DNA of 24,057 bases from IMG/VR virus record IMGVR_UViG_3300037882_000300, positions 1-24,057 of that record. The stretch is one strand, 5' to 3'. How positions within the stretch are numbered: position 1 is the stretch's first letter; each line of letters begins with the position of its first letter. The translations under genes were made by a program, and so were the position numbers. Below are positions 2,740-13,001 of the stretch, one piece after another. The DNA is from a virus. The notes below the pieces were generated by a model. That model made no database searches. It had not been told where the DNA came from and saw only the letters and a program-made list of their open reading frames with translations.

Positions 2740-2778
2740 ATGAACATGACAACTGCATTGTCAGAACGGATTATATGA
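2740..2778 (+). CDS. 12-aa leader peptide coupled to primase gene
   Basis: An ATG at 2740 has an excellent Shine-Dalgarno site (AGAGGA, 2727-2732, seven bases away). It encodes MNMTTALSERII and ends at TGA 2776-2778. That stop overlaps the primase ATG (2775) as ATGA. The primase ATG itself has only a weak upstream site, so ribosomes probably load at 2740 and reinitiate. The peptide may have no function beyond coupling. Some risk remains that it is coincidental. Confidence 0.5.
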   Translation: MNMTTALSERII

Positions 2779-5258
2779 GTGCATTGCCAACAGTACAACA
2801 ACACCCTGCATCAGTGGATGCCTACATTCGCCATGGCTTCTCACTGGTCCCCATCCCACAGGGAACCAAGGGACCACGCACCGCTGGTTGGAACATCAAG
2901 GCCAACGCCATCAAGTCGCAGGCTGACCTGCCCCAAGGCTGGGGTATCGGCTTGGCCCATGCTTACAGTGGCACGATGGCCTTTGATATCGACGAGTGGG
3001 ACACCACCGCCATGGTGCTCGGGCTGCAAGGGATCAACCTAAAATCGCTTTACGATGCCAACGATGCTGTCATCGTAGACTCTGGCCGCGCGGGGCACGG
3101 TAAGCTGCTCTACAAGATGCCACTGGGTATGGCGCTGCCGTCCAAAAAGATCATCATCAACGGCATCACTGCTTACGAGCTGCGCTGTGCCACGGCCAAC
3201 GGGTTGACGGTGCAGGACGTGCTGCCCCCATCTATCCACCCTGACACCAAGCAGCCCTATCGCTGGGCAGGTAAGGGTCACTGGATGCGCCTGCCAGAGC
3301 TGCCACAGTCCCTGTTAGACTTGTGGCATGGTCTTCTTGAGCAGGACAAGGTGCGCACGCTTGCCACGGGCGATGGTATCGATGCGTCATGGGACGAGAT
3401 CCGTTCAGCCATCGAGTCGATCAGTCCTGACTGTTCCCGTGAAGAATGGGTCAACGTGGGCATGGCACTGCACTGGGCAGGCACGCACACCAACCAGCTA
3501 GACCAAGCCCTGCATCTGTGGGACGAGTGGTCCAAGCCATCGAACAAGTACCCCAGCGAGAAAGAGATCATCAACCAGTGGGTCAGCTTCAAGTCAGACA
3601 AGGCTACCGCTGTCAAGCTGGGCACGTTGTTCCACATCGCCAAACAACACGGATGGTCACGCCCACCCGTTGACGCTGCATCGCTGTTCGCGGCAGTTGG
3701 CCAAGCTGCACCCATGACCCCTGTCAACGTGACTGCTGGCATCCGTCCACCCGCGCCAGAGATGAACATGGACCTGTGGCCGCACATCCTTAAAACCCGC
3801 GCCAATGAGATCGCTGAAAGCGTGGGCTGTGATCCACTGGTCCCACTGTTCTCAGGCATGGCCGCTGTCTGTGGTGCGATTGACGCACGCACACGCTTGG
3901 AGCTGATGTCGGGCTTCCAAGTGCCACCAGTGCTGTGGCTGATGACCCTCGGTGACCCAGCCGATAAGAAGTCGCCAGGCTCACGCCCCATGATGTCACC
4001 ACTCAAGAGCATCGAAGCTGAGGACCGTCCACGCTTTGCCAAAGAGATGCTGGACTGGGAGGGTAAAGAGGCTGCACACGCATCGTCGAAAAAGGCTTTC
4101 CTTGAGTTCTCTGCATCGACTGAGGCCATGTTGTCGGGTGACCAAGCGCCCACGGTGGCAGAGTTGCCAAAGCAGCCTGTGCCTTTGAAAATCACAGTGT
4201 CGGACATCACGAGTCAGAAGCTCGTGCGCTCGGCTGCTGACCGTCCCCGTGGCCTGCTGTGCTACCTCGACGAGATGAACTCATGGGTTAAGAAGCTGAC
4301 AGACCGCACCAGTGGCGAAGATCGTTCGGCTTGGGTGGTGTCTTATGAGTCTGAACCGTATGAGATGGACCGTGTGGGCGCTGGGTCCATTCATGCTGAC
4401 AACCTCGCTGTGAGCATCTATGGCAACATCCAACCCGCAGTGTTCAAAGCCAACCTGCAAGCACTGGCATCGGACGGCCTGCTGCAACGCTTCATACCCG
4501 CCATTTTGCGCAGCAACAAGACGAAGCTAGGCCACCCTATCCCCGAGTACCTGACAGCCGCTGCTGCATGGGAGAACACGCTTCGATTGACCTGTGCGCT
4601 CCCACCACAGACCTACAAGCTGTCACCCGATGCGTTCAAGGTCTACCGTGAGTTCCAAGCATGGTACGAGGAGTCCAAGCAAGACGAACGCCTGCTGATG
4701 TCCAATGACACGTTTATGACCGCATTCGGTAAGCTAGAGGGCACTGCTGGCCGATTGATTCTCATGTTCCATATCATCGAGTCACCGTTTAGCCTGACAG
4801 TCGATGTCAACATCGTCAACCGAGTGATCGAGTTGATCAAGTCGTACATCATTCCAGCGTATCGCTATGCCTTGGGTGAAGTGGCAGGTGTTGATACCTT
4901 TGATCAGTGGGTAGCCGATCACATGATCCACCACTTTGATAAAGGTCAAATCACCCTGTCTGAGTTGAAACGCAGCGCACGTCGAAGCCTTGACGGTAAG
5001 ACCATCTGGACTCAAGACCAAATGGTGCTCAGTGCCATGGCCACCTTGGAGCAGGCTGGCTGGGTGATTCGCTTGGATGACGGTACGAAAGAGCATCAGC
5101 ACCATGCAGAGTGGGCTATCAATCCGTCACTGGGTGAACAGTTCAAGGATCACCGTAAGAAGGTCATTGCAGCGCGTCAGCGACTGGCAGAGCAGCGATG
5201 GTCTAACTCAGACAAACCGAAACCCAAGGTCAAAGGGTACGAGTTGCTGGAGGAATGA
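2775..5258 (+). CDS. primase-polymerase / DUF3987 helicase-like replication protein
   Basis: This 827-residue protein has three parts. Residues about 15-190 are a bifunctional primase-polymerase (archaeo-eukaryotic primase) domain: 'GFSLVPIPQGTKGP' (21-34), the metal-binding D-x-D in 'AFDIDEWD' (D71, D73), 'DSGRAGHGKLLY' (102-113) and 'LPPSIHPDTKQPYRW' (150-164). Residues about 205-272 match a PriCT-2 primase C-terminal module. From about 333 on is a DUF3987-type ATPase-like region. Its P-loop position reads G-D-P-A-D-K-K-S (393-400), lacking the usual second glycine. Walker B is 'LLCYLDEM' (D499, E500), and 'DGLLQRFIP' (568-576) resembles the arginine-finger segment. The protein would prime and possibly unwind phage DNA. 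It is preceded by a coupled leader peptide and followed directly by a terminator. Confidence 0.9.
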   Translation: MSALPTVQQHPASVDAYIRHGFSLVPIPQGTKGPRTAGWNIKANAIKSQADLPQGWGIGLAHAYSGTMAFDIDEWDTTAMVLGLQGINLKSLYDANDAVIVDSGRAGHGKLLYKMPLGMALPSKKIIINGITAYELRCATANGLTVQDVLPPSIHPDTKQPYRWAGKGHWMRLPELPQSLLDLWHGLLEQDKVRTLATGDGIDASWDEIRSAIESISPDCSREEWVNVGMALHWAGTHTNQLDQALHLWDEWSKPSNKYPSEKEIINQWVSFKSDKATAVKLGTLFHIAKQHGWSRPPVDAASLFAAVGQAAPMTPVNVTAGIRPPAPEMNMDLWPHILKTRANEIAESVGCDPLVPLFSGMAAVCGAIDARTRLELMSGFQVPPVLWLMTLGDPADKKSPGSRPMMSPLKSIEAEDRPRFAKEMLDWEGKEAAHASSKKAFLEFSASTEAMLSGDQAPTVAELPKQPVPLKITVSDITSQKLVRSAADRPRGLLCYLDEMNSWVKKLTDRTSGEDRSAWVVSYESEPYEMDRVGAGSIHADNLAVSIYGNIQPAVFKANLQALASDGLLQRFIPAILRSNKTKLGHPIPEYLTAAAAWENTLRLTCALPPQTYKLSPDAFKVYREFQAWYEESKQDERLLMSNDTFMTAFGKLEGTAGRLILMFHIIESPFSLTVDVNIVNRVIELIKSYIIPAYRYALGEVAGVDTFDQWVADHMIHHFDKGQITLSELKRSARRSLDGKTIWTQDQMVLSAMATLEQAGWVIRLDDGTKEHQHHAEWAINPSLGEQFKDHRKKVIAARQRLAEQRWSNSDKPKPKVKGYELLEE

Positions 5259-5291: not shown

Positions 5292-5591
5292 CTACTTGGT
5301 TAATGATTTTTCTAATCGTTCTCGCGTTACGCCGTCAAGCGCCATTCCGCAACAGTTACACCACCAAATATCAATGTTTTCTGGAGTTTGGTCTTTTACA
5401 AAAGCAACCCACCCTTCAACCATGTTATCTACTAGATATGCTTTTTGGTTCCATACCCATCCGATTCGTCGATAGCCGTCTTTGTCATCTTTATCCCACA
5501 AAGGGATTGGTCTATGCCACCATCGCAAATGAATGACTCTAAATCTTGAATCAAACTTCATTCGGTCTGAACGCTTTAATTTAAAGAACAT
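5292..5591 (-). CDS. hypothetical phage protein, Trp-rich (99 aa)
   Basis: This is the last gene of the leftward early operon. AAGGA precedes the ATG at 5591 with suitable spacing, and the start overlaps the end of the upstream gene by 11 bases. The protein begins M-F-F-K-L-K-R-S-D and is rich in tryptophan and aromatics ('IHLRWWHRPIPLWDKDD', 'RRIGWVWNQKAYLV', 'IDIWWCNCCGMALDG'). The C-x-C-C cluster near residue 80 could bind metal, but no second ligand pair is obvious. No signal peptide or membrane span. I do not recognise the family. Its place in the early operon suggests a host-takeover or accessory role, which is only inference. Confidence 0.75.
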   Translation of the reverse strand: MFFKLKRSDRMKFDSRFRVIHLRWWHRPIPLWDKDDKDGYRRIGWVWNQKAYLVDNMVEGWVAFVKDQTPENIDIWWCNCCGMALDGVTRERLEKSLTK

Positions 5592-5778
5592 TGTTTTTCC
5601 TTTTTAACACATCTTGTACATTTTTAATCAATAGGTGAGGCCACTCATACCAATCGGTATGCTCAAGTAAATCATTAGCTTCATCATCCGTCAGATCAAC
5701 CCATTCACGGTTAACGACCCGATTGAGGTCCGATGCTTTAATCCACAGCTCACCATTAATTTCTTTTGCTGGAATCAT
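5581..5778 (-). CDS. hypothetical early phage protein (65 aa)
   Basis: The start at 5778 overlaps the stop of the upstream gene by four bases (ATGA), so translation is coupled. The sequence begins M-I-P-A-K-E-I-N-G-E-L-W-I. A central 'VDLTDDEANDLLEHTDWYEW' recalls the 'GLTDEEI' segments of many small phage proteins. It ends in a basic helix 'LLIKNVQDVLKRKNNVL'. No catalytic or metal-binding pattern is visible. The family is not recognised. Confidence 0.75.
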   Translation of the reverse strand: MIPAKEINGELWIKASDLNRVVNREWVDLTDDEANDLLEHTDWYEWPHLLIKNVQDVLKRKNNVL

Positions 5779-6215
5779 GCAGCCTCCCGTTTCAACTTAG
5801 GTAATGGAGCCCAGTGAGTGTAAAAAGTCTCTTTACCGTGATAGCTGCCATACATAGCCACCCCACCCTGTCCGAGTAGTTGCACCTTAGCACCACGGGG
5901 GCAGGTGGCTATGGGTTGCCAAAAGTAGTTATGGTCCACGGCGGCTGTGCCTGTGCTGTCGAGTTGTGGTGTGGTGTAGAGAGGCGTGTGAGGAGGATTC
6001 CAGTCAGGCCAAAGCTCATGCTTATAGATGTCACCCGCTGCGTCTATCCACGCCACAGGCTCACCCTGCTCTTGCTTGGCTAGTGCTTCTTCTAACTTTG
6101 GAATCATGGCTTGTGCAATACGCTGCGCATTTGCGCCGTTTGTCCATGAATCGTAAGTTTCGTTTGCTATTTCTTTAAACGCCTCAAGCCCCAGCTTTAA
6201 TGCTTCTTTACTCAT
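5775..6215 (-). CDS. DUF551-like phage protein
   Basis: This is a 146-residue protein. Residues 1-50 are helical ('EALKLGLEAFKEIANETYD', 'LEEALAKQEQGEPVAWID'). That segment, ending in EQGEPVAW, recurs as an N-terminal module in many phage accessory proteins. The C-terminal part ('FWQPIATCPRGAKVQLLG' to 'YTHWAPLPKLKRE') has the W-x-P-I ... T-H-W-x-P-L-P frame of DUF551. The function of DUF551 is unknown. It couples by ATGA to its neighbour on each side. Confidence 0.8.
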   Translation of the reverse strand: MSKEALKLGLEAFKEIANETYDSWTNGANAQRIAQAMIPKLEEALAKQEQGEPVAWIDAAGDIYKHELWPDWNPPHTPLYTTPQLDSTGTAAVDHNYFWQPIATCPRGAKVQLLGQGGVAMYGSYHGKETFYTHWAPLPKLKREAA

Positions 6216-6307
6216 AGCGGGGCATCCTCAAAGTTGTCAGGGTTAAACCGTGGCACACGGGTGCCTTGGTCCTTGGGGTTGGGGAATGGGGGAAAGGGCC
6301 AACTCAT
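6212..6307 (-). CDS. 31-aa proline-rich early peptide
   Basis: This small gene fills the exact space between its neighbours. Its ATG (6307) overlaps the upstream stop as ATGA, and its own stop overlaps the ATG at 6215 in the same way. It begins MSWPFPPFPNPKDQGTR and ends 'FNPDNFEDAPL'. Short peptides starting M-S-W-P-F with prolines occur in other phages, in my recollection. The two-sided 4-base overlaps are the main argument that it is translated. The function is unknown. Confidence 0.6.
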   Translation of the reverse strand: MSWPFPPFPNPKDQGTRVPRFNPDNFEDAPL

Positions 6308-6498
6308 TCCTTGATCCCTCCAATGTGCATAGAGAAGCTGGCGCGTGTGTCAGGCTCAAAGGGAAACTCTTGGATCAGGGTCACGGCACGATCTGCTGCA
6401 CCGTTCCAACCATTCAAGAACACCAGCCAAGCGGCATCACTGGTGGCCAAACCCATGTCTCTAAAGAGTCGTTCAAATTCAAGGCGTGCGGGGGTCAT
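6304..6498 (-). CDS. hypothetical early phage protein (64 aa)
   Basis: This gene is coupled by ATGA overlaps on both sides. It begins 'MTPARLEFERLFRDMG' and has a helix-turn-helix-like rhythm ('RLFRDMGLATSDAAWLVFLNGWNGAADRAV') without a convincing DNA-binding match. Small phage proteins with 'W..W' spacing and an 'FxxWF/W' core are common in early operons. No membrane span or metal site. The family is not recognised. Confidence 0.75.
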   Translation of the reverse strand: MTPARLEFERLFRDMGLATSDAAWLVFLNGWNGAADRAVTLIQEFPFEPDTRASFSMHIGGIKE

Positions 6499-6683
6499 TG
6501 TGTATTCTCCTTGGCTTCCAAGATTACAGATTTAGCATTTGCAATGCGACACCCGCCATCGTTCACATCATCCAGAAAATGTGATTGACAGTAACCATGA
6601 TGATCAAGGCGGCAAGGTTCATCATTGACCTCAACTAACTCAACAAGGCAGTCGAGTAGCTTGGTGAATAATCCATTGTTCAT
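6495..6683 (-). CDS. hypothetical early phage protein (62 aa)
   Basis: The start at 6683 (M-N-N-G-L-F-T-K-L-L) is chosen over the longer frame from 6794. AAGGA sits seven bases upstream, and the ATG overlaps the stop of a separate 43-residue gene as ATGA. The protein is acidic ('LVELVEVNDEP') with three cysteines and three histidines in 'CRLDHHGYCQSHFLDDVNDGGC', a possible metal site. The function is unknown. It couples by ATGA to the next gene. Confidence 0.7.
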   Translation of the reverse strand: MNNGLFTKLLDCLVELVEVNDEPCRLDHHGYCQSHFLDDVNDGGCRIANAKSVILEAKENTQ

Positions 6684-6811
6684 TTTGTTTCCTTCGATTG
6701 TGTTGAGCAGTGGATATGCACCCACCGTTTGTAGCCGTCGATCTCGATTAGCCTGCTGCCCTGCATCGTGCGAGGTAGTTGGCATAGGGCGCATAGTTTG
6801 ACTGGGTTCAT
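6680..6811 (-). CDS. 43-aa zinc-finger-like peptide
   Basis: This small gene is bounded by ATGA overlaps at both ends (start 6811, stop within 6680-6683). It begins MNPVKLCALCQLPRTM and continues 'EIDGYKRWVHIHC'. Cys7-x2-Cys10 and His35-x-His37/Cys38 make a C2-HC type zinc site in a very small protein. Such peptides are frequent in phage early operons and may bind nucleic acid or host enzymes, but no target is evident. A longer competing frame on the same strand lacks a ribosome binding site. Confidence 0.65.
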   Translation of the reverse strand: MNPVKLCALCQLPRTMQGSRLIEIDGYKRWVHIHCSTQSKETK

Positions 6812-7080
6812 GGTTCGTCTACCTCCTTGTCATCTCTGCAACCACAGTCGTCGCACTGCCAGTATTGCCAATGCGCTTGGGTATACATGGGGCCAGTGCA
6901 GCTTGGGCACGATGGTTCGTCGTCATCTATGGCATCCCTGAGGCATTCGATGCATGAGCAATGACCAGTGCCACAGTTTTGGGGTAATTTGGGTTTACCG
7001 AATATGCGATCCATCCCCTCGGCAAACGCTTTGTGGTTTGTTGGGCGCATGGTGTCGCCTTTGCCTGCTTCATGGGTCAT
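6808..7080 (-). CDS. GKGDT-RPT motif protein with C-terminal zinc ribbon
   Basis: This 90-residue protein has an N-terminal 'GKGDTMRPTNHKAFAEGMD' then RIFGK, the signature of a small phage family (GKGDxxRP...FxxxxDxIFG). Here it is followed by cysteine pairs 'CGTGHCSCIECL', 'CPSC' and 'CDDCGC', enough for one or two zinc sites. The usual family members are short, so this looks like a fusion with a zinc ribbon. The start at 7080 overlaps the XRE gene stop as ATGA; an internal ATG at 7050 is the alternative. The function is unknown. Confidence 0.75.
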   Translation of the reverse strand: MTHEAGKGDTMRPTNHKAFAEGMDRIFGKPKLPQNCGTGHCSCIECLRDAIDDDEPSCPSCTGPMYTQAHWQYWQCDDCGCRDDKEVDEP

Positions 7081-7343
7081 GGCTTCCCTTTTGGTAAAAA
7101 GTAATCATGTATCGCGGGGGCTATGGTTTCCAGTGAGCCCATTACATCGAGCAGGCGAACGGCAACCGCTGGAGGTGTACGTTCACCCGATTGCCACTTG
7201 ATGTAGGTATGCACGGAGACACCTAGATAGTCGGCGGCTTGGGTGTTGGTTAATTTGAGTCGTTCCCTCAGTGCTGCAATGCGTGCAGAGGCTGGAGGAA
7301 TGGGGGGTTTTAGGCGTGTTTGTTCAGTCATAAGGGGTTGCAT
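7077..7343 (-). CDS. XRE-family helix-turn-helix regulator
   Basis: This is an 88-residue protein. Residues about 21-66 are a clear XRE/Cro-type helix-turn-helix: 'RIAALRERLKLTNTQAADYL', then 'GVSVHTYIKWQSGERTPPAV' and 'AVRLLDVMGSL'. The recognition helix is within 'SVHTYIKWQSGE'. ATG 7343 and ATG 7331 (M-T-E-Q-T-R) are both possible, and neither has a good ribosome site. It sits mid-operon among early genes, so its level would follow early transcription. It is a candidate ligand for the ACCCAWTGGGT operators upstream of this operon, which is inference only. Confidence 0.8.
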   Translation of the reverse strand: MQPLMTEQTRLKPPIPPASARIAALRERLKLTNTQAADYLGVSVHTYIKWQSGERTPPAVAVRLLDVMGSLETIAPAIHDYFLPKGKP

Positions 7344-7364
7344 AGGGTTGAGGGTTAGAGGGGC

Positions 7365-7424
7365 TCAAAAGCCCATTAATTCTGAGATTAGGGCGGCAAT
7401 GATGCACGCGACGATGATGGTCAT
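7365..7424 (-). CDS. 19-aa hydrophobic peptide, possible membrane span
   Basis: MTIIVACIIAALISELMGF is encoded between two larger genes. Its ATG (7424) overlaps the upstream stop as ATGA, the same coupling used throughout the operon. It is almost entirely hydrophobic and long enough for one membrane span. A small hairpin (GGGCT/AGCCC, 7361-7374) lies over its stop codon. No homologue is known to me. The overlap supports translation, but a 19-codon frame may be chance. Confidence 0.4.
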   Translation of the reverse strand: MTIIVACIIAALISELMGF

Positions 7425-7612
7425 GCTCTAGCACTCCCACGGTACTCAGCGCGGCCACGTTCGATAAGCTCCCGAGCGTCTGCTAAGTCTCGCCCTTGTT
7501 CACTCGATAACATGGCGCGGATCTTTTGAGCCTCTGCGCGTGCGCTGTCTATGCCTTGGGCTTTCTCATAACGTCGCCCGGCTTCGATGTAGGCGTGTTC
7601 GGTGTGGTTCAT
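7421..7612 (-). CDS. hypothetical early phage protein (63 aa)
   Basis: A basic, highly helical protein begins 'MNHTEHAYIEAGRRYEKAQG' and ends 'DARELIERGRAEYRGSARA'. The 'A-R-x-L-I-E-R-G-R-x-E-Y-R' tail occurs in small phage proteins of unknown function. It is coupled by ATGA to the genes on both sides. No metal site or membrane span. Confidence 0.7.
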   Translation of the reverse strand: MNHTEHAYIEAGRRYEKAQGIDSARAEAQKIRAMLSSEQGRDLADARELIERGRAEYRGSARA

Positions 7613-7800
7613 GGTGTCCCCTTGATTCGTTTAATGATGGTTTCAATAGTCAACGGGCTGTCAATCATGCCGCAACCGTCAAGAATCACACGGGTAAGGG
7701 TGTCGCCGTCATAGGTCACTGGGTACATCATGACGATGTGCGAAGGGTTGACCGTGTAGACAGTTTCCCCGTTGTCTTGAATTTCGATAAACGTGGTCAT
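7609..7800 (-). CDS. hypothetical early phage protein, beta-rich (63 aa)
   Basis: The sequence 'MTTFIEIQDNGETVYTVNP' then 'HIVMMYPVTYDGDTLTRVIL' alternates short strands and ends in a helix 'SPLTIETIIKRIKG'. The strand pattern with a terminal helix is reminiscent of small FlbD-like or SH3-like proteins, a weak resemblance only. ATGA overlaps on both sides place it firmly in the operon. The function is unknown. Confidence 0.7.
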   Translation of the reverse strand: MTTFIEIQDNGETVYTVNPSHIVMMYPVTYDGDTLTRVILDGCGMIDSPLTIETIIKRIKGTP

Positions 7801-7979
7801 GGTTTCATTGTCCTTTTGAGTCGTTCGATTTGGATGCGCACGGCATCAGCTTGCGCCGCGTACCCTTTGCGCAGGGTGTCACTGTGCCTGATAAAGTTTG
7901 CGGCTTGATCGTTTAGCCAGATTAAGCGGCCTTCTAAGATTTGCAATTGTTTGATCGGGGGCAGTTCTTCCAGGTTCAT
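7797..7979 (-). CDS. hypothetical helical early protein (60 aa)
   Basis: The start at 7979 (M-N-L-E-E-L-P-P-I-K-Q) overlaps the upstream stop as ATGA and is preferred to the longer frame beginning at 8036. The protein is a helical hairpin: 'IKQLQILEGRLIWLNDQAAN' then 'YAAQADAVRIQIERLKRTMK', with heptad hydrophobics suggesting a coiled coil. No known family is recognised. Confidence 0.7.
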   Translation of the reverse strand: MNLEELPPIKQLQILEGRLIWLNDQAANFIRHSDTLRKGYAAQADAVRIQIERLKRTMKP

Positions 7980-8311
7980 GGGTGTAACTCCTTGGGGATG
8001 TCCACGGTATCGCCTAGCTTTGATGCAACGTAGCACCGCATAGCGGCTTCGAGTGGTGTTGTGCCTTTGATCCAGTTAATACCACCCATGCTGCATTCCC
8101 ACGATAAACCATGAGGGCGTAACAGTAACAATTCACGCTCAATAATTGGGCCACCTTGCGCCCAGTTGGTTGAATATCGGCGGGTGGTTGGGGTTACCTC
8201 CCATTTTGTTGTATTGCGCTTTTCATTAGGTTGCACATAGTGACCCAATGTGTTCTCACATTTAGCCACCGCCCAGTCAAGCGCGGCACCAGTTAATTCT
8301 GCGGTTTTCAT
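7976..8311 (-). CDS. NinX-like protein (DUF2591)
   Basis: This is a 111-residue protein with the DUF2591 frame: 'MKTAELTGAALDWAVAKCEN' at the start, 'YSTNWAQGGPIIERE' in the middle and 'TPLEAAMRCYVASKLGDTV' near the end. The family includes NinX of lambdoid phages; its biochemical role is not established. It is coupled by ATGA on both sides. Confidence 0.87.
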   Translation of the reverse strand: MKTAELTGAALDWAVAKCENTLGHYVQPNEKRNTTKWEVTPTTRRYSTNWAQGGPIIERELLLLRPHGLSWECSMGGINWIKGTTPLEAAMRCYVASKLGDTVDIPKELHP

Positions 8312-8655
8312 ACGTCAAGCCCTTTAGTCAAACAGATTTGATTCACGCCATTAGCCCAAACGGTGTGCCGTTCATAAGTGATTGCACCCTTAGCGGCTAG
8401 AAACGCGGCTTCGTCAACCTCCACGACTTCGGGGCCATCTTCTAGGTCGTAGTCGATTGCAAAGTATCGAACGGGGATGGTGGCATCTTCAATCTTTAGC
8501 TCAAAATCGTCGCGCTGATCTTCTAACTGATCTTCGAGTGTGTCGCGTTCACGTTCAGCATCGTCTAATTGACCCAGTAGAGTTGCAGTCTCTGTGAAGC
8601 CCTCAGCGTATGCAAGGCGCTCGCGTTCTTCTGTGGTCATTGTTTGAATGTTCAT
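8308..8655 (-). CDS. hypothetical protein with acidic coiled coil (115 aa)
   Basis: AAGGA lies nine bases before the ATG at 8655. Residues about 25-58 ('LLGQLDDAERERDTLEDQLE', 'DQRDDFELKIEDA') are a charged coiled coil. The C-terminal half ('IPVRYFAIDYDLEDGPEVVE' and 'HTVWANGVNQICLTKGLDV') looks like a small beta domain. No family is recognised. It ends with an ATGA overlap to the NinX-like gene. Confidence 0.75.
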   Translation of the reverse strand: MNIQTMTTEERERLAYAEGFTETATLLGQLDDAERERDTLEDQLEDQRDDFELKIEDATIPVRYFAIDYDLEDGPEVVEVDEAAFLAAKGAITYERHTVWANGVNQICLTKGLDV

Positions 8656-8660
8656 TTTGT

Positions 8661-8855
8661 TTAGTCCTTTGCGAATGAGGCTTTGAATTGTTTAGAGGGG
8701 TAACGGGCGACAGCACCCGCAACGGCATCACGACACGTTTTATAGGCGTTAGTGCTCCATGCGTACACGGGGTCACCTTCGCGCAATTGGTAAACGTGGA
8801 TCTTGCGACGATAGACGGGGCCAAAATGCGCGGTGTCAATTACTGGGTTTCTCAT
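8661..8855 (-). CDS. hypothetical early phage protein (64 aa)
   Basis: A small basic protein begins 'MRNPVIDTAHFGPVYRRKIH' and continues 'YQLREGDPVYAWSTNAYKTC', ending 'AVARYPSKQFKASFAKD'. The 'YAWSTNAYKTCRDAV' stretch is a feature I have seen in small phage proteins, but I cannot name a family. It is coupled by ATGA to the upstream gene and is five bases from the next start. Confidence 0.75.
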   Translation of the reverse strand: MRNPVIDTAHFGPVYRRKIHVYQLREGDPVYAWSTNAYKTCRDAVAGAVARYPSKQFKASFAKD

Positions 8856-9166
8856 GCGGACACCTTTAACGGTTGATCGTTTAAGAGAATCACGCCCTTA
8901 CATCGGCGCACATTAGCACCCAAAGCGCGGAGGCGTGATAACGTGGTGTTCGTGCCCCATTGGTTAAGTGTGCGAATGTTTACGGCAACGGTTTGATCGT
9001 TGTGCCAGTAGTCGGCAATGTGGTTGCCGTGTAGGTAAATTTCCGATCTACCGCCGAAAGGGTTTCCCGTTTCACTGGGTGACAGATAGAAGACCGCCAT
9101 ATTTGCACAGCGCCAGTCTTTGCGTGCTTTTACGGCTTCGAGTGTTTGTTGTTCGATCTTGCGCAT
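8852..9166 (-). CDS. DUF8033-like early phage protein
   Basis: The start at 9166 (M-R-K-I-E-Q-Q-T-L-E-A-V) is preferred over the frame from 9202 because AAGGGG sits seven bases upstream. The 104 residues have the layout of a common phage family: a basic N-terminal helix 'MRKIEQQTLEAVKARKDWRC', a 'YLHGNHIADYW' strand, 'TLNQWGTNTTLSRLRALGA' and a short C-terminal tail. I associate this with DUF8033, of unknown function. It couples by ATGA to the next gene. Confidence 0.7.
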   Translation of the reverse strand: MRKIEQQTLEAVKARKDWRCANMAVFYLSPSETGNPFGGRSEIYLHGNHIADYWHNDQTVAVNIRTLNQWGTNTTLSRLRALGANVRRCKGVILLNDQPLKVSA

Positions 9167-9176
9167 GGTGTACCCC

Positions 9177-9503
9177 TTAAAAGTTACGATAAACAAAGCC
9201 ACCTTCTACAGCACCAACCAACGCGCCTTCGTCTTCTAGGTACTCGCGCACGGTTTCCTCTTTTTCGTCGTCGTCTTCGCAGTTGTCCAAGTCGATGCGA
9301 TAGTTGTCGGCAATGTTTTGCCAACTGTCTTCGCTAAAGTCACAACAGAGGGCGATAACGTCCAATTCCAACTCAGTGCCCGTGTCGTCTTCGTATTGTT
9401 CAAGATAGTCCCAAAGCACCCCAAGCCCTTGGAGTGAGAAGTTTTGAGGGCGCAAGTTTGTAAAAGCGTCTTGAAATTCTGAAAAGCCAACAGTTTGTTT
9501 CAT
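9177..9503 (-). CDS. strongly acidic early phage protein (108 aa)
   Basis: AAAGGA precedes the ATG at 9503. The protein begins 'MKQTVGFSEFQDAFTNLRPQ'. Its core is 'LWDYLEQYEDDTGTELELDV' then 'IALCCDFSE', and later comes a run 'DNCEDDDEKEETVREYLEDE'. By eye about 28 of 108 residues are Asp or Glu against about six Lys/Arg. The 'F-x-x-A-F ... LELDVIALCCDFSE' frame belongs to a widespread small phage family of unknown role. Strong acidity allows a DNA-mimic role, but no such function is shown by the sequence. Confidence 0.8.
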   Translation of the reverse strand: MKQTVGFSEFQDAFTNLRPQNFSLQGLGVLWDYLEQYEDDTGTELELDVIALCCDFSEDSWQNIADNYRIDLDNCEDDDEKEETVREYLEDEGALVGAVEGGFVYRNF

Positions 9504-9535
9504 GGTTTAGTTTCCTTTGAGTTACGGGTTACGGG

Positions 9536-9694
9536 TTAAGCGGGGACAAACAAAACGCCGTTATAAGCGAGAAGACAGACTGCGAGCAATGCACCCAGCA
9601 CAGCGCCACAAACGTATTCATAAAAGCCCGTTTTATATGGGGCACGGTTCGCGGGTTCAATTGCCAAATGTTGAGCGTGGTTAGAGTGTTTCAT
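9536..9694 (-). CDS. 52-aa single-span membrane peptide
   Basis: The gene runs from ATG 9694 (AAAGG upstream) to TAA 9536-9538. A soluble N-terminal tail with histidines (MKHSNHAQHLAIEPANRAPY) is followed by a hydrophobic segment 'YVCGAVLGALLAVCLLAYNG' (about 24-43) and a short tail 'VLFVPA'. It fits neatly between flanking genes with no overlap. One span with the charged part first suggests an inner-membrane peptide. The function is unknown; a holin-like or superinfection role is conceivable but unsupported. Confidence 0.6.
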   Translation of the reverse strand: MKHSNHAQHLAIEPANRAPYKTGFYEYVCGAVLGALLAVCLLAYNGVLFVPA

Positions 9695-9706
9695 GTGGTT
9701 AGCCTT

Positions 9707-9955
9707 TTACAGTGGTTTAACAATTGAGCGGAGCGCGGTATCAACGTGCGAATCGTTCATGTATGAATAAAGCGTGTCGCAGATAAAGCGAGTGCAACTT
9801 TCGGAGTTGTTAGCGTTTCCGCTGAAATAGGTCAAGTCCCAGCGATACCGTTTATCCGTCAAACCTTTGGCTTTGTATTCGGCGCGGCGTTCGATTGTGT
9901 CAAGGGGTTCAATCAATGATTGAAGTTGTGCAAAGTGCGCGGGTGTGATTTTCAT
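9707..9955 (-). CDS. hypothetical first gene of early operon (82 aa)
   Basis: The start at 9955 (M-K-I-T-P-A-H-F-A-Q-L-Q) has AAAGG seven bases upstream and lies about 46 bases after the predicted transcription start. The longer frame from 10123 runs through the promoter and is rejected. The protein has 'LIEPLDTIERRAEYKAKGLT', 'KRYRWDLTY' and the tail 'SYMNDSHVDTALRSIVKPL', a frame shared by a widespread phage family of unknown function. As the first early gene it would be expressed earliest and most strongly. Confidence 0.77.
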   Translation of the reverse strand: MKITPAHFAQLQSLIEPLDTIERRAEYKAKGLTDKRYRWDLTYFSGNANNSESCTRFICDTLYSYMNDSHVDTALRSIVKPL

Positions 9956-10007
9956 TAGGTAGCCTTTCGAGTGTTTACAGTTACGGGTTTTGTTTGTCAC
10001 GGGAATT

Positions 10008-10035
10008 ATTATAACCCATTGGGTCAAGGTGTCAA
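10008..10035 (-). promoter_or_regulatory. consensus sigma70 promoter of leftward early operon
   Basis: On the minus strand TTGACA (10035-10030) and TATAAT (10013-10008) are both perfect consensus hexamers, 16 bases apart. The 11-base palindrome ACCCAATGGGT (10024-10014) lies in the spacer and abuts the -10. A start near 10001 gives a leader of about 46 bases to the first early gene. A protein bound to the palindrome would block RNA polymerase. Confidence 0.87.
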
Positions 10036-10515
10036 CAAAATCATTTCTATCACGGAATACACCCTGATAGTTAAAAACTAACCCAATGGGGTCTACTGTT
10101 TCCAGTGTAGCACACTGTGACAATTGTGACCAGTTTAGGGGGGTAGAGAAATCGGGATTCTCGGATTAAATGTGCTTTTTAAAAAGTCGTAAAAAACATT
10201 CTCTCGCGCGCACGCGTGGGGCTTTTTGTCACAGGTTGCCTAAAAAACGGGCACTTTGACCCAATGGGCACAGACCCAGCGGGTTAGCACTAACCCAATG
10301 GACACAATGACCCAATGGGCACAGTCACCCATTGGATGCATGGATTCCGTGACCCACTGGGTTCAGTTCATGCGCTGGATGCCGTGACCCACTGGGTGCA
10401 GGGAATTTCGGGTTTTCGGATTGAGGGGGTGGGTGGGGCCGAGCGCCATCGGGTCACGGTAACGGAGGACTCAGATGAAATTTTTTATTTTATTTAACCC
10501 TAGAACCCATTGGGT
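10014..10515. repeat. array of ACCCA-W-TGGGT palindromes
   Basis: Exact or near copies of the 11-base palindrome occur at 10014-10024 (perfect), 10081-10091, 10259-10269, 10274-10284, 10293-10303, 10310-10320, 10327-10337, 10352-10362, 10387-10397 and 10505-10515 (perfect). Degenerate copies are possible at 10370-10380 and 10444-10454. TGACCCAATGGGCACAG is repeated exactly at 10257-10273 and 10308-10324, and CCGTGACCCACTGGGT at 10347-10362 and 10382-10397. Repeated operators or replication iterons are the two likely readings. Confidence 0.85.
10036..10474. other. gene-free control region between divergent operons
   Basis: No supported gene lies here. Besides the palindrome array it holds CAGTGT-AGC-ACACTG (10103-10117), the perfect 12-base palindrome CTTTTTAAAAAG (10175-10186) within an A/T-rich stretch (about 10165-10200), and CACGCGTG (10211-10218) inside a run of alternating CG. 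These elements are consistent with a combined regulatory region and replication origin. No good rightward promoter was recognised. Confidence 0.6.
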
Positions 10516-10531
10516 CAGTTATCCTCATTGA
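10475..10531 (+). CDS. 18-aa leader peptide candidate before packaging genes
   Basis: GGAGGA (10464-10469) sits six bases before ATG 10475, the best ribosome site in this region. The frame MKFFILFNPRTHWVSYPH ends with TGA at 10529-10531. A perfect copy of the palindrome (10505-10515) lies within it. It is 56 bases upstream of the small terminase start, which has no clear ribosome site. It may be a leader peptide for the late operon or a chance frame. No homologue is known to me. Confidence 0.35.
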   Translation: MKFFILFNPRTHWVSYPH

Positions 10532-10587
10532 TACCATTTATTCACTTGTTACACGTCATCAGCAAGTTGTGATAGCATCGGGCCACT

Positions 10588-11172
10588 ATGGAACACACAT
10601 CCACAGGCACAACTGTCACAGCAGGCCCACAATTCAGCGACACTCTCTTAAACTCGAACGCTCCCGAAGTGCCCGAGTGGTTAAGTGCGCCCACACCCGA
10701 GATCCCAGCGATCCGTGAAGCGACACCCACAAACCGAGAGATCATGTATATGCAGTTCGAGTACATGTTTGATCATGTGCTAGAAGAACTCGCTGGGGGC
10801 AAGACAATCAAACACACCCTTGACAAAGACCCTCGTGGTTACGAGTCGGCCACGTATATCCATTGGATCAAGAAAGACCCGATGCGCACGAGCCGCTATG
10901 AGAACGCCCAACTATTGTTTGCAGAGCAGCTTGGCGCTGAGATCATTGAGATCTCGGACGCGGAGGACTCAGCAGAAGATGTCCAGCGTTCTAAACTGCG
11001 GATTGACAGTCGCAAGTGGCTCATGGGCGTTTACAACAAGAAACGCTACGGTGAGACAAAAACTATCGAGATGGGTGGGTCGATAAGTATTATTGATGCT
11101 CTCAGTGCAGCACAGGCGCGAGTGATAGAGGGTGAAGTGATTGATGTGACACCTCGACTGGAGAATGAGTGA
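10588..11172 (+). CDS. terS: terminase small subunit
   Basis: This is a 194-residue protein. It begins M-E-H-T-S-T-G-T-T-V with a disordered Thr/Pro-rich N-terminus (to about 50). A helical DNA-recognition region follows ('EYMFDHVLEELAGGKTIKHT' through 'SATYIHWIKKDPMRTSRYEN'). It ends in the oligomerisation part ('AEDVQRSKLRIDSRKWLMGV', 'NKKRYGE', 'SIIDALSAAQARV'). The 'KLRIDSRKWLMGVYNKKRYGE' stretch is typical of Sf6/P22-like small terminases. It recognises phage DNA and loads the large subunit at the packaging site. It opens the late operon directly upstream of two coupled small genes and the large subunit. Confidence 0.85.
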   Translation: MEHTSTGTTVTAGPQFSDTLLNSNAPEVPEWLSAPTPEIPAIREATPTNREIMYMQFEYMFDHVLEELAGGKTIKHTLDKDPRGYESATYIHWIKKDPMRTSRYENAQLLFAEQLGAEIIEISDAEDSAEDVQRSKLRIDSRKWLMGVYNKKRYGETKTIEMGGSISIIDALSAAQARVIEGEVIDVTPRLENE

Positions 11173-11468: not shown

Positions 11469-13001
11469 ATGCAGAAGCTCAAATACTCGCCCGAAGATGA
11501 ACAGATCCTGATGTCCCAGCTCTGGAGTCCCCAGCTTGCTGATGACCCTGAGAGCTTCGTACTGTTCTGTTTCCCGTGGGGCGTGGAGAACACTCCACTG
11601 GCCAAGTTCAAAGGTCCACGGAAGTGGCAACGCGAGATCCTGCGTGAGATCCGTGACCACTTGAAGGCCAACCGTGGTGAGCTCGACATGGACGCGCTGC
11701 GTGCTGCGGTGAGCTCAGGTCGTGGTATTGGTAAGTCTGCGCTGGTGTCGTGGCTGATCCTTTGGATGCTGTCAACCCGTATTGGATCGTCAGTCATCGT
11801 GTCGGCCAACAGCGAGAACCAGTTGCGCACGGTCACATGGGGTGAACTCACCAAGTGGTCCACCATGTCTATCAACAGTCACTGGTGGGAAGTGTCGGCT
11901 ACTAAACTCGTACCTGCCACATGGTTGACCGAGTTGGTCGAGCGTGACTTGAAGAAGGGTACTCGTTACTGGGCCGCTGAGGGTAAGCTGTGGAGTGAAG
12001 AAAACCCCGACTCGTATGCGGGTGTCCACAATCACGATGGCATGATGGTGATCTTTGATGAAGCATCAGGTATTCCCGATGGCATCTGGTCCGTGGCCGC
12101 TGGCTTCTTTACAGAGAAGATCCTAGATCGCTATTGGTTCGCGTTCAGTAACCCACGTCGAAACACAGGCTACTTCTATGAGGCAGTCGAAGGTAGCAAG
12201 CGGGACTTTTGGAAATCGAAGATCATTGACGCACGCACAGTCGAAGGCACTGACCAAGCGGTGTATGACCAGATCATCGCGGAATACGGTGAAGACTCCA
12301 TTCAAGCCCGAGTCGAGGTCTATGGTGAGTTCCCTGCTGCTGGTGAAGATCAGTTCATCTCACCCGTGACCGTGGAGGATGCGTTCAAGCGCGACAAGTA
12401 CAAAGATGCAACAGCGCCTGTCGTTGTTGGCGTTGACCCCGCGCGTGGCGGTATGGACAGCACCGTGATTGTGGTGCGACAGGGTCGTGACATCGTGGCC
12501 ATCAAACGGTTCAAAGGTGACGACACCATGACCACCGTGGGTAACGTGATCGACGCGATTGAAGAATACAAGCCTGCGCTGACCGTGATCGACGAGGGTG
12601 GCTTGGGCTACGGCATCCTTGACAGATTGACTGAGCAGCGGTACAAAGTGCGCGGGGTGAACTTCGGTTGGAAAGCCAAGAACCCCGTGATGTGGCAGAA
12701 CAAGCGTTCCGAGATGTGGGGTGCGATGCGCGACTGGTTAAAGACCGCCGCGATCCCACGGGACCGTCAGTTGAAGGCTGACCTTGTTGGCCCAACACGT
12801 AAGTTCAATTCGTCTGGAGCCATTGTGCTTGAGAGTAAAAAAGAAATGAAGGCCCGTGGTCTGGCATCCCCCGATGCTGCTGATGCACTGGCCGTCACGT
12901 TTGCGTACCCCGTGGCTTCTCGGAGCTACAATGTTAAACAAGCGCCCCGACGAGCCTACGAAGGCGGTGGCGGCGTATCATCATCATGGATGGGAAGTTA
13001 A
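11469..13001 (+). CDS. terL: terminase large subunit (packaging ATPase/nuclease)
   Basis: This is a 510-residue protein. The N-terminal ATPase has Walker A 'SSGRGIGKSA' (82-91), Walker B 'VIFDEA' (194-199) and the coupling segment 'FSNPRRNTG' (226-234). The C-terminal RNase H-like nuclease shows metal-binding Asp323 in 'VGVDPARGGMD', Asp375 in 'VIDEGGLGYG' and Asp469/472 in 'PDAADALAVTFA'. It docks on the portal, pumps DNA into the procapsid and cuts the concatemer. The start at 11469 follows the upstream stop by one base. Length and motif order are complete, so it appears intact. Confidence 0.95.
   Translation: MQKLKYSPEDEQILMSQLWSPQLADDPESFVLFCFPWGVENTPLAKFKGPRKWQREILREIRDHLKANRGELDMDALRAAVSSGRGIGKSALVSWLILWMLSTRIGSSVIVSANSENQLRTVTWGELTKWSTMSINSHWWEVSATKLVPATWLTELVERDLKKGTRYWAAEGKLWSEENPDSYAGVHNHDGMMVIFDEASGIPDGIWSVAAGFFTEKILDRYWFAFSNPRRNTGYFYEAVEGSKRDFWKSKIIDARTVEGTDQAVYDQIIAEYGEDSIQARVEVYGEFPAAGEDQFISPVTVEDAFKRDKYKDATAPVVVGVDPARGGMDSTVIVVRQGRDIVAIKRFKGDDTMTTVGNVIDAIEEYKPALTVIDEGGLGYGILDRLTEQRYKVRGVNFGWKAKNPVMWQNKRSEMWGAMRDWLKTAAIPRDRQLKADLVGPTRKFNSSGAIVLESKKEMKARGLASPDAADALAVTFAYPVASRSYNVKQAPRRAYEGGGGVSSSWMGS

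Follow-up and report, generated by a model that had tools for sequence, protein, structure and literature searches.

A palindrome array between divergent early and terminase genes of podovirus-like phages: a proposed XRE operator set for an early-to-late switch

Introduction

In phage phi29, the early/late switch is run by protein p4 from inverted repeats that lie between oppositely directed early and late promoters (PMC3100819), and in phage GIL01 late genes are turned on by the LexA-like activator gp6 (PMC6182141). Among the lambdoid CI/Cro regulators (434, 933W), a site beside the -35 element can activate and a site over the promoter represses, with residue 6 of the recognition helix placed at the operator. 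In the 933W repressor this residue, K46, contacts an operator G in the tested model, and the K46A variant loses specific binding (PMC3317979). The antitoxin MqsA binds AACCT-N3-AGGTT (PMC4894380).

Here we describe a palindrome array in the window, which is a whole 24,057-base IMG/VR record and a fragment of a podovirus-like phage. On balance we consider it probable, judging by sequence evidence, that the array is the operator set of an XRE regulator (7077-7343) that runs the early-to-late switch. We know of no transcription programme for these uncultivated podovirus-like phages.

The closest parallel is p4: there an early phage protein acts at inverted repeats between divergent promoters, repressing early transcription and activating a weak late promoter, and the same is proposed here. 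Unlike p4, the regulator here is of the XRE/HTH_3 type, with Pfam and PHROG scans giving XRE-type families only, and its sites are 11-bp palindromes in 8-10 copies, with no p6-like partner identified. By this analogy, the best reading is a switch that would work like that of p4, run by a protein that is not a p4 family member. With the lambdoid regulators the XRE protein shares an HTH whose recognition-helix residue 6 would lie at the operator, and a similar dependence on site placement is proposed. However, its 88 aa hold the HTH domain only, with no CI-type C-terminal oligomerisation/autocleavage domain, no lysogeny genes were identified, and the operator is a 4-3-4 palindrome in one array rather than paired three-site operators. 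The closest solved HTH is MqsA by sequence (E 2e-4) and HigA2 by fold, and the half-site spacing of the MqsA operator is the same as here, although its half-site ends in T and ours in C. Unlike these antitoxins, the XRE protein is a free-standing phage regulator, and a Pfam search of ten early ORFs around its gene gave no match to a toxin family. Aca2 and Aca10 are likewise small phage HTH proteins that repress their own operon, as proposed here, and are weak fold matches; in contrast to their case, the array reaches the late genes, no anti-CRISPR operon was identified in scans with general protein-family libraries, and the match to Aca2_YdiL (15.9 bits) falls below the cutoff of 23.8. GIL01 gp6 resembles the proposed regulator as a small repressor-family phage protein that turns on a late promoter, but it belongs to the LexA family, its site overlaps the -35 element, and its phage is temperate, with no array between divergent operons.

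Results

The window carries a replication module marked by primase/DUF3987, Cas4-like DUF2800 and Enc34-type ssDNA-binding genes, and the array separates its leftward early genes from the rightward terminase and virion genes. Searches of the window gave no RNA family in Rfam and no tRNA. The genes that matter for the argument are as follows.

5292-9955, minus strand: early operon of small genes, a close-packed run of leftward ORFs that includes the XRE gene
7077-7343, minus strand: XRE/HTH_3 regulator of 88 aa (Pfam HTH_3), the putative array-binding protein
10588-11172, plus strand: terS, Sf6-like small terminase (Pfam Sf6_terminase, E 5e-16; PHROG small terminase), the first late gene
11469-13001: terL, following terS

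Between these operons, nine copies of the palindrome ACCCRNYGGGT, each deviating from it at one position at most, and a weaker tenth copy lie in the 502 bp of 10014-10515.

10014, 10081, 10259, 10274, 10310, 10327, 10352, 10387 and 10505: starts of the copies with at most one mismatch
10293: start of the tenth, weaker copy
10014-10024: operator copy 1, a perfect ACCCATTGGGT, filling the spacer of the early promoter PE and abutting its -10 element
10081-10091: operator copy 2, ACCCAATGGGG
10259-10397: central operator cluster, with copies at 10259, 10274, 10293, 10310, 10327, 10352 and 10387
10505-10515: last operator copy, a perfect ACCCATTGGGT that follows an AT-rich tract and starts 83 bp upstream of the terS ATG

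The sequence-only reading had described nine to ten or more palindromes in about 500 bases between early and late operons, with perfect first and last copies and flanking extensions identical over 17 and 16 bases. This description was confirmed, and both identical pairs were recovered: TGACCCAATGGGCACAG, from 10257 and 10308, and CCGTGACCCACTGGGT, from 10347 and 10382. Its motif, ACCCA-W-TGGGT, stood as a palindrome array, though not in that exact form, since the site architecture is better described as a 4-3-4 palindrome, ACCC-RNY-GGGT. With up to two mismatches, ACCCAWTGGGT was found 22 times in the window against 6.2 expected, a number reached in none of 100 shuffles. The densest 502 bp contained nine copies with at most one mismatch, compared with a maximum of two in 60 dinucleotide shuffles of the window, and the remaining matches are isolated and mostly inside coding DNA. 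Among the papers searched, the four that contain ACCCATTGGGT do not concern phages, and the operator and its regulator family appear to be undescribed so far.

Searching IMG/VR with TerL, TerS and XRE yielded more than 200 related loci, some of them sharing a contig, and the palindrome cluster was present in most loci that include the region upstream of terS. Dozens of related contigs carry the array at the equivalent place between divergent early and terminase genes, and in most relatives the central cluster has four to eight copies. Across whole records, the motif occurs mainly upstream of terS, with few stray copies elsewhere. The motif is thus neither equally frequent elsewhere nor lacking at the orthologous place, and this concentration and conservation support the earlier suggestion that a dedicated phage protein binds the array. 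Five TerL relatives (G010 and G012-G015) have no ACCC copy; one of them, G012, carries a switched motif instead, while the other four also lack XRE, the ribbon-helix-helix (RHH) protein and this TerS, apart from a short TerS fragment in G010. G009 is without XRE, RHH and this TerS and has one stray motif copy but no array, and MW202483 is without array, XRE and RHH and retains a TerS fragment at most. Eight copies are present in an annotated relative, DSL-LC05 (OR003940, Dishui Lake), whose XRE homologue is named 'repressor protein C'; this phage is predicted to be virulent, and the paper that describes it is silent on promoters and operators (PMC10611076). A genome-contig scan for a host returned only metagenome-binned fragments and distant prophages, and no host was found.

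Promoters were sought as sigma70 consensus matches, and a single promoter-like site was found in 9500-10800.

10008-10035, minus strand: PE, leftward early promoter, with -35 TTGACA (10035-10030), a 16-nt spacer and -10 TATAAT (10013-10008)

PE matches the consensus at 12 of 12 positions, its equivalent is kept in relatives, and the early operon can be inferred to be transcribed from it. A palindrome lies within the PE spacer in 34 of 83 distinct relatives, exactly abutting the -10 element in 32 of them, and abuts the -35 element instead in 12 more. Taken together, 46 of the 83 have a site overlapping or abutting the leftward promoter, whereas 18 control palindromes were so placed in 0 to 2 contigs; some matches are expected for the control AGCC, because AGCC is the switched motif. 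The other 37 showed no strong PE with a site, in part because the contig ended, or the search reached its 1300-nt limit, too soon. The exact composite TTGACA-N5-ACCCRNYGGGT-TANAAT occurs in 58 IMG/VR contigs, and even where the promoter copy lies ~1100-1280 bp from terS (G001, G016, G018 and G026), it still fills the spacer. From this placement we think it likely that XRE represses PE through copy 1.

On the late side, a different arrangement was found.

10573-10578, plus strand: putative late -10 element, TAGCAT in TGTGATAGCAT, 9 nt before the terS ATG, with a weak -35

The TAGCAT-like element or a variant of it is kept ~9-10 nt before the ATG in aligned relatives despite a variable linker. 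The late start site was placed by a guess from this alignment, and the late mRNA is probably near-leaderless. For most of 43 distinct linkers, the distance from the start of the last site to the terS ATG is 52-55, 62-65, 72-75 or 83 bp, with no lengths between these classes, while the linker sequence itself varies freely. The outliers measure 88-119 bp, and in several of these (95-107) an additional site, 33 bp farther downstream, rejoins the series. This phasing gave a Rayleigh R of 0.70 at 10.5 bp, with a best period of 10.6 bp, and none of 4000-5000 jittered linker sets was as high, kinship among contigs being ignored in this comparison. Copy 2 and the central cluster are also helically quantised across relatives (R=0.58), whereas phasing is weaker between cluster and last site (R=0.37) and slight within the cluster (R=0.16). 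Most of the early promoters found score 11-12 of 12, most of the late ones 7-9 even when fitted optimally, and such weak scores are expected if the late promoter is activated. Activation of the late promoter by XRE is therefore moderately probable on this sequence pattern, and looping or face-specific repression also fits the helical phasing. Neither the filling of the early promoter spacer by copy 1 nor the helical phasing of the last copy to the terminase promoter was mentioned in the sequence-only reading.

A further conserved element lies between copy 2 and the central cluster.

10092-10258: core of conserved length, consisting of TGTGACAA, an AT-rich part, a GC hairpin (10202-10221) and TTGTCACA

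In an alignment of 39 relatives, the AT-rich part holds GGATTCT-like repeats and the hairpin is an inverted repeat. The core has no Rfam match, and RNAalifold on this alignment gave no common structure. It could be the site of a second regulator or an origin.

The XRE gene lies within the leftward operon of PE, and the sites lie between PE and terS. Its product matches Pfam HTH_3 (PF01381) at 28.0 bits against a cutoff of 23, with the DSL-LC05 homologue below it at 14.3 bits. The AlphaFold2 model (pLDDT 88) has helices at 18-29, 33-40, 44-52, 59-74 and 76-80, a predicted five-helix lambda-repressor-like fold with an exposed recognition helix, and comparison of it with the PDB brought up mainly XRE domains, at modest E-values of 2.6e-3 at best. 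K49, homologous to K46 of the 933W repressor, is the sixth residue of the modelled recognition helix, 44-52.

This residue covaries with the operator. In G012, whose TerL is 85% identical and which encodes XRE, the region repeats AGCCANTGGCT, and the recognition helix reads RHW where others have RKW or IKW. Contigs with K at residue 49 have ACCC..GGGT operators in 88 of 89 cases, and those with H or N have AGCC..GGCT operators in 9 of 10, a covariation with a Fisher value of 1.5e-7 on distinct HTH segments (contig kinship ignored). Of the N-type contigs, L296 is only marginally GGCT, and L225 has a further operator variant, ATCCATTGACT, which recurs at 16-bp intervals on the minus strand, ~130 bp ahead of terS, its final copy being 65 bp from the ATG. 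The phages with switched specificity keep the phase of the last site, at 65, 64 and 53 bp. H and N types form two separate clades, with H next to G016, a K-type phage, and N at another place in the tree. This tree uses few alignment columns and is unresolved in part; according to it, the specificity would have changed at least twice, and the switch rests on these two clades. The sequence-only reading had left open whether XRE or the RHH protein (2294-2494) reads the array. The covariation of specificity points to XRE, which is the best-supported candidate and very probably binds the array.

Discussion

From the array, its conservation, the promoter overlap, the phasing and the covariation, all of which are read directly from the DNA, we infer binding, repression, activation and a threshold role as follows. 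XRE would be produced from the strong promoter PE and, as it accumulates, would occupy the ACCC-RNY-GGGT palindromes. Bound to copy 1, inside PE, it would block RNA polymerase and turn off the early operon including its own gene. Bound to the phased copy upstream of terS, it would contact RNA polymerase from one face of the helix and raise transcription from the late promoter, which is weak and probably near-leaderless. Cooperative loading of XRE and the setting of the threshold would probably fall to the central cluster. In its most complete form, with one array read by an undescribed XRE family that represses at a core promoter and activates in a helix-face-dependent manner, under a twice-evolved code (K to GGGT, H/N to GGCT), this proposal is tentative, falling somewhat short of an even chance.

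The main rival is that XRE is a repressor only. As an autorepressor of the Cro or Aca kind, it would keep PE and also the late promoter silent, or both through looping, and late transcription would wait for another factor to start it; the phasing would then mirror loop geometry. Copy 1 sits at a classic repression position, the phasing of copy 2 to the cluster suits looping, and the fold neighbours include the autorepressors Aca2, HigA2 and P22 C2. However, phasing is strongest to the terS start and weaker between cluster and last site, and polymerase contact is therefore favoured over a pure loop. In addition, the late promoter is weak, and its site keeps clear of the -35 region on the upstream side, whereas the early site lies in or abuts a core promoter. 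We thus regard repression alone as unlikely, though worth serious consideration. That array and core serve mainly as a replication origin, with iteron-like repeats and XRE as origin-binding protein, would agree with the AT-rich and GC-hairpin parts between TGTGACAA and TTGTCACA and with the repeats on their flanks. It is nonetheless improbable, as the outer sites track the promoters rather than the core, no signature of an origin was identified, with GC skew set aside because the strand switch would confound it, and a Pfam search of XRE gave no initiator domain.

Two other candidate readers fare worse than an origin-binding protein. All whole records tested that carry the array also encode the RHH protein, but the strand with which it would touch DNA, TKFLTVRL, does not differ between the switched G012 and the unswitched G004 and G006, and on this ground the protein was rejected as the array reader, a role we consider very improbable. 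Pac sites usually lie directly upstream of terS, where the array is found, and the array-bearing phages share this TerS family, as would suit a packaging (pac/cos) site read by the small terminase. Yet the sites lie in core promoters, filling the spacer even ~1100-1280 bp from terS, and the operator changes together with XRE residue 49, so that packaging is the most improbable reading of all.

If the proposed XRE switch is correct, it would provide a transcription programme for a large group of uncultivated podovirus-like phages, of a known kind but with an operator and regulator family that look new. It would also be a case in which the specificity of an XRE regulator has switched twice in nature, with a recognition code readable from metagenome sequences in a large family of freshwater viruses of bacteria. 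The natural spacing series (53, 63, 73 and 83 bp) would probe the placement of an activator against RNA polymerase, and with one protein and two promoters the whole switch is directly testable.

Several minor features of the window were also observed. The RHH gene strictly co-occurs with that of XRE and is the better conserved of the two; its product perhaps binds TGTGACA elements. The primase gene (2775-5258) is directed against the early and Cas4-like genes, as it is in every array-bearing relative tested, which creates a second divergent promoter region, 2554-2775, beside the RHH gene and without ACCC sites. In the early operon, 7976-8311 strongly matches P22 NinX (E 1.9e-19). Finally, low-complexity tandem units of 21 and 42 bp occupy 2071-2204, within an Ala/Pro/Val-rich gene (1846-2361).
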